From positions 1 to 47,809 of the forward strand of contig JAIPGA010000010.1 in assembly GCA_021736445.1 (NCBI GenBank): 47,809 bases of DNA, given 5' to 3'. Source of the DNA: Synergistales bacterium. GTDB lineage: Bacteria; Synergistota; Synergistia; Synergistales; Aminiphilaceae. The translations under genes were made by a program, and so were the position numbers. Of this stretch, positions 12,297-15,399 are shown piece after piece. Position 1 is the first letter of the stretch, and each line of letters opens with the position of its first letter. The notes under the pieces are model-generated. The model was not told the origin of the DNA. It ran no database searches and was given only the letters and a program-made list of their open reading frames with translations.

Positions 12297-14282
12297 CTAT
12301 CTGTCGGCGCCGATCTGGTTGATGGCGGTGAGGGAGTCGATCTCACTGCGGATGATCCCGGCCAGTTCGTCCAGATAGCGGTCCTCCTGCTCCCGCCAGA
12401 GATCCAGCACCAGCTCTTCAACGGTTTCCCTGAAACGCCGTTCCCCCTTGTCCAGCACCTGTTCCACCCGCCACTCCGGGAGGATGCCCCGGGTGATCCA
12501 GGGGTGGAGGGGGAGCGCGTGGAGATTCCTCCGTCCCAGGGCGTAGACGATGATCCCTCCGATGCCGCCGATCACCAGTCCCACAGGGCCGCTCATGATC
12601 AGGGCCATCCCCGATCCACCGCAGATGGAGGCCGTCACGCCGCCCACAAGCAGCGCGCCGATCCCTTCGAAGAGCCCCACCAGTTCGTTGGTGAGGTCCC
12701 GCCCCGAGAAGGCAAACCTCCCGCTCTGGACCGGATGTCGGCTTCCTTCGGAGACCGATGTCAGATGCGGCGGCAGGGACCCCACCCCGTTTTCGGCGAA
12801 CCATCTGGCCGTGGCGCTCCGGATCTCCCCGGAGAGCACCACCGCCAGCTCCTCGGTCCGCTGGGAGAAGGCGGACTCGATCTCCGCAGCGGCCTCCTGC
12901 AGCCTCTTTTCCACCCTGGTGCGCAGACCCTGGATGGTTCCACCCTCCTGGCGGAAGGCGCGGACCGCCGGGGCGATGCGACGGCGGTAGATGCTGCCTG
13001 TCAGGTCGTCGGCGATCTCCCGGGCCATGTCCCCGGCCCGGACGGCGATGACCTCCTCTTTGAGAGAAGCGAGAAAGCGGGGAAGGCTGTTGTTGAGTCT
13101 GGCGCTGACCTGCCTGTGCCGGCGTTTCAGTGCCGGCAGAAGGGAAAGCCCCTCGGCGACCACGGCGTAGGGCTGGTCGCTCCGCAGCAGCTGCGAGGGC
13201 GCAAGGTGGAGCGCTTCGCGGATCACCTCGGGCACGAAAGGCCAGAGGCTGCTTCCCCCGGAGAGGAGCACCTTCTCGATATCGGCGCTGCGGATCTGGT
13301 GCCGTTCCAGTCCTTCCAGGAGGCAGTCCCTGAACCAGCAGATCAGGTCCACCGGTGTTCCGGGGAGCACCTTCCCGCCGGGGGTGTGGGCAAGGAGCTC
13401 CCGCAGTGTGTCCGAGGGCCGGTAGTCCGATGCGGCCTCCAGGAATGCTTCCCAGGAGAGATTCTCCAGCGTGGCGTATCGCCCGGCGCGGCCGCTCCAG
13501 GCTTCGGCGCGGTCTCTGCTCATGGAGGAGGAGAAGGCCTCCTTCATCCGGCGGCAGAGATACCACTGGACGAAGCTCGAGGCTCCTTCCCCGGCGAGCC
13601 GGGCCTCCAGCCCGGGGTTCCGCCGCAAGAGGAGCTGATAGAAGAGATCGTCGAAGAGCCGTCCGCCCAGCCGGAGATCGCCCCAGGCGTGTCGGATGTC
13701 CAGCCGTTGCATATAGGCGAAATCGCAGGTGCCGCCGCCGAAATCCACCACCAGCACGCCCCGCAGGGCTTCGGAGGGAGCGATGTCCCGCCGGGAGAGA
13801 TGGGAGAGCAGCGCCCCCACGGGCTCCTCCACGGTGCGCACCTCACCGAAGCCTGCCTCCCCGGCGATGGAGGCCAGGGCGGTGCGGAAGGCGGCGTCCG
13901 CCTCGCCGGGCACGCCGAAGTAGATCTCCTTGGAGCCCCCATCGAGATCGGCACCTGTCTGGAGTGCTGCGTTGCGGAGCCCTCTGAGGAAGTCCAGCGC
14001 CCACTGCGACGCCTCGGCGTCGGCAGTGATCTCCGGTTTGAACAGGATCCGCAGCCTGTAGCCGCGGCGTTCCTCGGCGGAGGCATCGGCCCAGGTCTCC
14101 AGCGCCCGGCTCCCCACCAGCGGCGTCTGTCCCTGTCTGTAGAGCAGGGCCGTCTCGGTGCCTACCTGTCCCGGAGCGAAGGAGACAGGCGAGGGGAGCA
14201 GTTCATCGGCGGGGCAGCGGCTGATGTAGGTGTTGCTGGTGCCGAAATCCACGGCGATGGTGTGGCGGGGTTCACCGTTCAT
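12297..14282 (-). CDS. Hsp70/DnaK-type ATPase with a membrane-hairpin C-terminus
   Basis: A 661-residue protein. Residues 8-385 form an Hsp70/actin-fold ATPase: phosphate-1 loop VDFGTSNTYI at 11-20, phosphate-2 loop VVDFGGGTCDF at 178-188, and adenosine loop VLLSGGSSLW at 338-347. The usual beta-sandwich substrate-binding domain is missing. Instead comes a charged helical region (about 390-500), a Gly-rich hydrophobic stretch long enough for two membrane passes (about 538-583), and a charged helical tail (about 600-661). This trunk-hairpin-tail order recalls bacterial dynamin/mitofusin-like proteins. I chose the ATG at 14282 because upstream residues are unlike the family. The start overlaps the end of the upstream gene by 11 nt, implying coupling. 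Its job is unknown; ATP-driven action at a membrane is inferred. Confidence 0.85.
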   Translation of the reverse strand: MNGEPRHTIAVDFGTSNTYISRCPADELLPSPVSFAPGQVGTETALLYRQGQTPLVGSRALETWADASAEERRGYRLRILFKPEITADAEASQWALDFLRGLRNAALQTGADLDGGSKEIYFGVPGEADAAFRTALASIAGEAGFGEVRTVEEPVGALLSHLSRRDIAPSEALRGVLVVDFGGGTCDFAYMQRLDIRHAWGDLRLGGRLFDDLFYQLLLRRNPGLEARLAGEGASSFVQWYLCRRMKEAFSSSMSRDRAEAWSGRAGRYATLENLSWEAFLEAASDYRPSDTLRELLAHTPGGKVLPGTPVDLICWFRDCLLEGLERHQIRSADIEKVLLSGGSSLWPFVPEVIREALHLAPSQLLRSDQPYAVVAEGLSLLPALKRRHRQVSARLNNSLPRFLASLKEEVIAVRAGDMAREIADDLTGSIYRRRIAPAVRAFRQEGGTIQGLRTRVEKRLQEAAAEIESAFSQRTEELAVVLSGEIRSATARWFAENGVGSLPPHLTSVSEGSRHPVQSGRFAFSGRDLTNELVGLFEGIGALLVGGVTASICGGSGMALIMSGPVGLVIGGIGGIIVYALGRRNLHALPLHPWITRGILPEWRVEQVLDKGERRFRETVEELVLDLWREQEDRYLDELAGIIRSEIDSLTAINQIGADR

Positions 14283-15399
14283 GGCCGTTCTCCCGTCTGC
14301 GCCGCACCAGCCCCCGCTGGAGCAGGACACCGTCCTTCTCAATGGGTTCCTCCTCGATCACGATGGGCTGGCCCTCCTCGACGACACCGAAGGTATCGTA
14401 CCGTTCCCGGAGGGCCTCGCTCCAGCGCACCGTTGCGCCGGAAGGGGAGTCTTCGCCTACGGAGAAGCCGTGAGCGCCGTCGAGCCCCTGGTAGCCCAGC
14501 GCCCGTGCCTCCTCGATCACCTCGTGGGAGGCCGTCTCCAGCTGGTTCCGGTGGGCGTGGTGGAGTCCGTAGACCGCCCGGATCAGCGGTCTTGGGCACT
14601 CCTCCACCGTCCGTTGCGGTTCCGCCGCACCTTCCAGGGCGATGACGGCGCATCCCAGCAAACGCAGCCTGTTCAGAAAGTAGCGGTGCAACAGCGAGCC
14701 CAGGTCCTTGCGGTTCAGTTGCTGTTCCTCCCGCGAGAGCAGCACGAAGCCGATGGCCAGAAGATAGAGGGCGATGCGCTTCAACCTGCTTCCCGCGGAC
14801 TCCGGCCTGAGTCCCACCATCCCCCAGAGGGCCCGCAGGAGGCCGCGCCCCGGGAGGGGCAGCATCTGCCAGAGCTCCGCCACCGTGGCTGTGCCGGCGA
14901 TGGCGCAGAGGGTACGCCGGATGGCCCTGGAGTGGGCGACGACGCCCGAGAGAGCGGCGCCGCAGACGGCGCCTGCGCCGACCGACCAGGGAGAGAGCAC
15001 GGCTCGTTCCAGACCGGCGAGGCCTGTCAGGGAGGAACCGCCGGCACCCCCGGCCAGAGCGCCGAGACCCGTGGCGGCGGCCAGAGCGGAGATGCGCAGC
15101 CGGCTCTGCAGCGGCAGGGCAATCTGTTCCGGCGGGGGAACCAGCACGGAGAGGCTCTGTCTGATCCGGAGGGCCGTTGCTTCGTCGGGATGCAGGATCT
15201 CCTGCTCCTGGAGTATTGAGAGCACCCCGTTCCGCAGAACCCGTTCCGCCTCCTGCGTCGCCTGTCGGCGTTCCTCCGCGCTGGGGATACCCCTCTGGGG
15301 GATGGAGGCGAGAAAGCGCTCCCGAGCCTCCTCCACCAGGCCGCTCTGTTGGGCAAGGAGGTTCAGTGCGGTTCGGAGCTGTTGTTCCTGTGGTGTCAT
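14272..15399 (-). CDS. Membrane protein of unknown function, partner of the Hsp70-like ATPase
   Basis: I do not recognise this 375-residue protein. Residues 1-85 are charged and helical. About 100-190 are Gly/Ala-rich and hydrophobic (ATGLGALAGGAGGSSLTGLAGL and more), with a short hydrophobic helix at about 216-232 (ALYLLAIGFVLLS). The C-terminal 140 residues are soluble, acidic then ending in an Arg cluster. A strong GGAGGAAATCC site precedes the ATG. The 11-nt overlap with the Hsp70-like gene and the shared Gly-rich membrane segments suggest that the two proteins act together. It could be a membrane docking factor or co-chaperone; there is no J-domain HPD motif and no GrpE resemblance that I can see. 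Confidence 0.7.
   Translation of the reverse strand: MTPQEQQLRTALNLLAQQSGLVEEARERFLASIPQRGIPSAEERRQATQEAERVLRNGVLSILQEQEILHPDEATALRIRQSLSVLVPPPEQIALPLQSRLRISALAAATGLGALAGGAGGSSLTGLAGLERAVLSPWSVGAGAVCGAALSGVVAHSRAIRRTLCAIAGTATVAELWQMLPLPGRGLLRALWGMVGLRPESAGSRLKRIALYLLAIGFVLLSREEQQLNRKDLGSLLHRYFLNRLRLLGCAVIALEGAAEPQRTVEECPRPLIRAVYGLHHAHRNQLETASHEVIEEARALGYQGLDGAHGFSVGEDSPSGATVRWSEALRERYDTFGVVEEGQPIVIEEEPIEKDGVLLQRGLVRRRRENGHER

Follow-up and report, generated by a model that had tools for sequence, protein, structure and literature searches.

Two overlapping genes on the minus strand of the window (the whole analysed stretch of 47,809 nucleotides, from a Synergistales bacterium) form a tightly coupled pair. 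One of them encodes an ATPase for which sequence comparison and structure prediction well support an Hsp70 head on a dynamin-like arm. The other encodes its partner, a predicted membrane protein whose C-terminus probably resembles the beta-domain of GrpE. We consider it rather probable that the two constitute a membrane machine driven by ATP, with a dynamin-like arm and a dedicated exchange factor anchored in the membrane.

Results

Gene layout and distribution of the pair

The ATPase gene (12297..14282, minus strand) was assigned from the open reading frame, its orthologues and an AF2 model and encodes 661 aa counted from its ATG start. A longer version starting from a TTG at 14342 found no support among the orthologues and was rejected. 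The partner gene (14272..15399, minus strand; 375 aa) comes first in the order of the strand, and its stop overlaps the start of the ATPase gene by 11 nt (14272..14282, minus strand), exactly as stated in the preliminary description. In most orthologous pairs the junction is an ATGA, hence an overlap of 4 nt. Codon-bias gene calling picked antisense frames in the G+C-rich window DNA and was discarded. From reading the translations, the same-strand upstream neighbours of the pair are dapF and an NhaC-type antiporter gene, and the gene for isocitrate dehydrogenase (icd) converges on the pair from the other side. No conserved third gene was found next to the pair. In a single Synergistota genus only, the ATPase gene overlaps at its end with a small third gene, whose product begins with a hydrophobic segment (L041:7641-8264 and L043:8377-8979).

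A genome scan with the single protein found nothing, and an alignment-based query was required to find relatives. The ATPase was then detected in 23 of the 188 Synergistota genomes, 22 of which also had the partner. Both genes were adjacent, partner first, in 21 of these genomes; the other two hold no more than an ATPase fragment at the end of a contig. Ten genomes beyond Synergistota contained adjacent pairs as well: three Phycisphaerae/Sedimentisphaerales bins, Fimbriiglobus, three further planctomycete genomes, a Desulfovibrionaceae bin, a deltaproteobacterial bin and a Lamprocystis bin. Partner and ATPase, in this order, thus stood side by side in 31 genomes of four phyla, so that the coupling proposed from the source genome extends well beyond it. 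The sole unlinked case was a Planctomycetaceae bin (G191; L129, L220) with ATPase and partner on separate contigs. The ATPase orthologues were about 40% identical and full-length, with the partner nearly always adjacent, which goes well beyond chance; the distribution of the pair was patchy. Since the named records outside Synergistota are all metagenome bins, the host given for any one of them may be incorrect.

The Hsp70-type head

The nucleotide-binding head comprises residues 1-385 (13128..14282, minus strand), as delimited by Pfam, Foldseek and invariant columns. Pfam and NCBIfam recognised only an Hsp70/MreB-type core in the ATPase, the Pfam match being HSP70 (2.7e-7). The best Foldseek matches of the AF2 model (pLDDT 84.8) were all nucleotide-binding domains of DnaK/Hsp70, with E values around 1e-15. 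MreB models matched the head too, more weakly than those of Hsp70; the MreB model reached 24.9 bits on the ATPase and stayed below its cut-off of 27. A Dynamin_N GTPase domain was not found by Pfam.

The motifs of the head are D12, K82, E153, D180, DFGGGT (180-185), GGRLFDDLF (206-214) and GGS (342-344). All were invariant in 15 diverse orthologues from several phyla, with the exception of GGRLFDDLF, which was mostly invariant. D12, K82, E153 and D180 correspond to D10, K71, E175 and D199 of Hsp70. The region matching Hsp70 subdomain IIB was conserved in the orthologues as well. The head is of the Hsp70 type with its catalytic residues kept, in agreement with the earlier reading that all nucleotide-binding loops are retained, and going by these residues the ATPase should be an active enzyme.

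The arm of the ATPase

Beyond the head, after residue 371, the AF2 model was all-helical. An interdomain linker, a beta substrate-binding domain and a helical lid were absent from the model and from family searches with the C-terminal region, the last 270 aa having no family match of their own. The replacement of the Hsp70 substrate-binding domain by a trunk, a Gly-rich hairpin and a tail, proposed in the preliminary description, was borne out by this helical model, in which a normal substrate-binding domain did not appear. DnaK and HscA share with the window ATPase the nucleotide-binding head, the catalytic residues and the subdomain IIB-like region. Where they have the linker, beta domain and lid, however, the window ATPase has a rigid helix leading into a predicted membrane arm.

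The helical trunk (residues 371-497; 12792..13172, minus strand), delimited by DSSP on the AF2 model and by alignment, consists of a helix of about 76 residues (371-446), which continues the final helix of the head without interruption, and of two shorter ones (450-463 and 465-497). An FR..GG motif is conserved at residues 443-448. The Gly-rich hydrophobic hairpin (residues 527-589; 12516..12704, minus strand) was defined by hydropathy, alignment and a profile match to the dynamin paddle region. Its halves span residues 527-563 and 565-589 in the AF2 model, at a low pLDDT of 41-59, and it carries the conserved motif AxxCGGxGxALxxxGPxGLxxGxxxG. Hydrophobicity is strong over residues 530-587 (highest 19-residue mean, 2.09), the most hydrophobic part of the arm; glycine makes up 25% of residues 530-590. 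The returning tail helix covers residues 603-650 (12333..12476, minus strand) according to DSSP on the same model. Divergent ATPases with a shortened or altered Gly-rich hairpin motif are encoded at L132:5608-8094 and L223:2240-4273. In another relative (G003; L046:5978-8400), the ATPase gene is broken over two reading frames, by sequencing error or decay.

Relation of the arm to dynamin-like proteins

With a profile built from 20 ATPase arms (A13), we searched 3,378 ORFs taken from loci with other Hsp70-like genes. Only one match fell below E=1, a 633-aa protein from a Bacteroidales bin (L182; E=2.1e-7, 28.2 bits), collinear with the profile through trunk, hairpin and tail. This protein is a dynamin (Dynamin_N, 2.3e-24). 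Reversed ORFs gave zero matches with A13; among 1,000 residue-shuffled copies of the matched protein, the highest score was 8.4 bits, against 28.2 for the match. We accept homology of the ATPase arm to the dynamin trunk and hairpin because of this match, and regard it as well supported. The dynamin-like order of parts, at first guessed from anatomy, has thereby gained a match to a Dynamin_N protein.

Three further comparisons point the same way, none of them significant alone. In a reciprocal phmmer search, the arm of the L182 dynamin was matched best by its own orthologue and next by three ATPases of the window family (E 0.004-0.02). In a PDB-wide profile search covering 177,635 sequences, the bacterial dynamin-like protein BDLP (2J68) took rank 3-4 with an E value of 0.16-0.31; the match lay in its residues 566-667, the region of the paddle and the returning helix. 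Profile-profile comparison of the arm with a mixed dynamin set scored 36.9, where reversed controls were only moderately lower (26-31) and chemoreceptors reached 17. Bacterial dynamin-like proteins (BDLP 2J68/2J69/2W6D; Dynamin_N) resemble the window ATPase in having a head, a helical trunk, a Gly-rich membrane hairpin and a returning helix; their head, however, is a GTPase, whereas that of the window ATPase is of the Hsp70 type. In seven genomes, the dynamin loci did not overlap with the Hsp70-type loci and contained neither an Hsp70 nor a GrpE gene.

The partner protein

The AF2 model of the partner had a pLDDT of 78.8. Helices at the N-terminus (residues 1-100; 15100..15399, minus strand; DSSP on the model) are followed by hydrophobic hairpins at residues 101-222 (14734..15099, minus strand), seen in hydropathy and alignment. 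The several hydrophobic stretches that hydropathy shows at 101-224 conform to the membrane segments that had been noticed earlier in the neighbouring gene product. The first hairpin pair (101-157) is conserved, whereas some orthologues lack the second. Partners without the second pair are encoded at L124:4920-5981 and L126:4905-5987, which suggests that no more than the first hairpin plus the GrpE-like module is essential. A common origin of the N-terminal half of the partner and the ATPase arm was considered: the two aligned in a consistent register, at a score of 38.5 compared with 28-30 for reversed controls, and on account of this margin we do not claim it.

GrpE was suspected from the conserved C-terminus of the partner ahead of any structural search. 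This C-terminus (W...Y..FG...GD.V.VE..P...DG.V..KGLVRK) is the best conserved part of the protein, and a portion of it (the VRKV codons) doubles as a Shine-Dalgarno-like stretch for the ATPase gene, which calls for some caution in the GrpE reading. The GrpE-like module (residues 230-368; 14296..14712, minus strand) was delimited by DSSP on the model, Foldseek matches to GrpE and hhalign. In the model, a long helix (230-258), two shorter helices (270-280 and 284-300) and six short strands (323-367) follow each other in the same order as in GrpE. Foldseek placed four GrpE chains among its top 17 matches, at weak E values of 1.4-2.4, the first of them with the highest listed probability (0.20).

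Sequence searches were less uniform. Pfam, NCBIfam and PDB profile searches of the partner returned chance matches only and no GrpE, and the curated GrpE model PF01025 matched none of 15 diverse partners. With hhalign, a narrow GrpE profile from one order did no better than shuffles. Against a diverse GrpE set, which included the GrpEs of the cassettes described below, the partner aligned collinearly over the last helix and the beta-domain (P=0.014); none of 200 shuffles did as well, and the reversed control scored 10.6 against 19.7. With the partner domain alone, P was 0.006. Since the narrow profile failed and only the diverse one beat the shuffles, we keep the GrpE claim moderate. As modelled, the partner C-terminus resembles GrpE in its long helix, short helices and small six-strand domain; the gene also lies beside one of Hsp70 type, as grpE does in related cassettes. 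They differ in that the partner has N-terminal membrane hairpins, lacks the FDPxxH signature and is missed by GrpE models. The housekeeping GrpE of the genome is encoded elsewhere.

The partner might instead be an ordinary membrane subunit whose tail became GrpE-like by convergence, with nucleotide exchange being intrinsic to the ATPase; this would be compatible with a dynamin-armed ATPase. The lack of a significant GrpE match in single-sequence searches and the weak profile statistics are in favor of such a subunit. The order of the strands, the collinear alignment, the Foldseek ranks and the arrangement of the genes, however, all favor GrpE and render convergence rather doubtful. On the evidence of sequence and model, we find it quite likely that the partner has a GrpE-like function. 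The preliminary description had stated that neither a J-protein nor GrpE is adjacent to the ATPase. As to its first half, no J-protein was noticed when the neighbouring ORFs were read; the second is probably wrong, because the partner's own C-terminus looks GrpE-like.

Related gene clusters

The L182 locus contains, in this order, a dynamin gene, an abutting gene for a head-only Hsp70 with a zinc ribbon, a second dynamin gene and the gene for a 219-aa GrpE-like protein, which a GrpE profile recognised with 10.8 bits (single-sequence E 1.4e-5). In L137, from another Bacteroidaceae bin, dynamin, Hsp70 and dynamin follow each other in the same order. A C39-type peptidase-like gene is also present in both clusters (L182:2854-9153 and L137:1450-7150). 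The Bacteroidales cluster (L182, and L137 in part) has the same functional parts as the window pair, there as separate genes: the Hsp70 head, with its zinc ribbon, is a protein distinct from the dynamin, and the cluster includes GTPases, whereas the window pair has no GTPase. These clusters possibly represent a separate, undescribed dynamin/Hsp70 system. A cluster of the L182 type may show the unfused state of the window ATPase, which looks like an Hsp70 head joined to a dynamin arm with the GTPase gone.

On a cyanobacterial plasmid from Pseudanabaena (L248:9453-11584, NZ_CP112875.1), the annotated grpE and an Hsp70-family gene overlap and are arranged as in the window pair; genes for DUF1257, an AAA ATPase and DUF2997 come next. 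A Clostridiales contig (L180:1299-9678) carries several consecutive Hsp70-like genes and encodes a 581-aa protein with a GrpE-like end domain. No relatives were found in phages or viral contigs, and the plasmid search yielded distant Hsp70s only. Two Neisseria gonorrhoeae records of the plasmid collection (NZ_CP119142.1 and NZ_CP119140.1, about 2.17 Mb each) were chromosome-like.

Discussion

In the machine that we propose, the Hsp70 head would occupy the place of the GTPase in a bacterial dynamin-like protein. ATP would close the head, and hydrolysis or exchange would reopen it; the rigid helix would pass this movement into the trunk and on to the Gly-rich hairpin in the membrane. Since the last helix of the head runs on into the trunk, as in dynamins, a rotation of the domain would move arm and hairpin. 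The ATPase might act alone or as an oligomer, and membrane bending, tethering, repair or the handling of membrane clients are possible outputs. From its anchor in the same membrane, the partner would insert its beta-domain into the cleft of the head and thereby reset it. GrpE itself drives its beta-domain like a wedge into the cleft of Hsp70 and turns subdomain IIB (PMC4753570). GrpE-like nucleotide exchange is a likely role of the partner. Membrane remodelling, exchange activity and lever motion are properties that we infer for this putative machine. Going further, the pair could be an ATP-driven "dynamin" under the control of chaperone machinery: the GTPase of a dynamin-type protein would have been replaced by an Hsp70 ATPase, which a dedicated, membrane-embedded GrpE-like exchange factor would cycle. 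Such a new class of membrane-remodelling motor is a more tentative proposal that we nevertheless regard as a serious possibility.

The arm may alternatively do no more than anchor a membrane-tethered Hsp70-type chaperone, whose clients would bind to the arm or the partner and which would not deform the membrane. An Hsp70 head and a GrpE-like partner are indeed chaperone parts, and the hairpin alone would suffice as an anchor. Conservation and the dynamin match, however, reach beyond the hairpin and span the whole trunk as well, and the substrate-binding fold is absent from the AF2 model. We consider such a chaperone unlikely.

No description of the pair or of such a chimera was found in the open-licence literature searched. 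The nearest published idea concerns predicted conflict systems with GTPases together with Hsp70, GrpE and a head-only Hsp70 (PMC7159879). What these systems share is the combination of a P-loop GTPase, a head-only Hsp70 and GrpE; they differ in that effectors are present, that the paper does not mention dynamins and that the passages considered report no membrane-armed chimera. The window pair might be a stripped-down relative of them, hence an immunity or self-killing device. The gene neighbourhoods reported in PMC7159879 and the existence of a dynamin/Hsp70/GrpE-like cluster speak for this. No variable effector was noticed beside the pair, however, the window neighbours being housekeeping genes (dapF, nhaC, icd); a conserved third gene is lacking and PADLOC gave no real match, which makes a conflict device improbable. 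A membrane-anchored actin/MreB-like filament former with the partner as assembly factor, suggested by the weaker MreB matches of the head, is highly improbable given that the best folds are all Hsp70 nucleotide-binding domains, the subdomain IIB-like region is conserved and cassettes of relatives carry GrpE.

If the dynamin-armed machine proposed here holds true, the head of a dynamin-like machine would be exchangeable, an Hsp70 ATPase driving an arm that is elsewhere driven by GTPases. This would join two NTPase worlds usually studied separately. The pair would offer a simple bacterial system of two genes for a membrane device governed by nucleotide exchange in the manner of chaperones. It would also give a testable function to genes of which family models at present recognise no more than the Hsp70-type head, leaving the other product an uncharacterised membrane protein.
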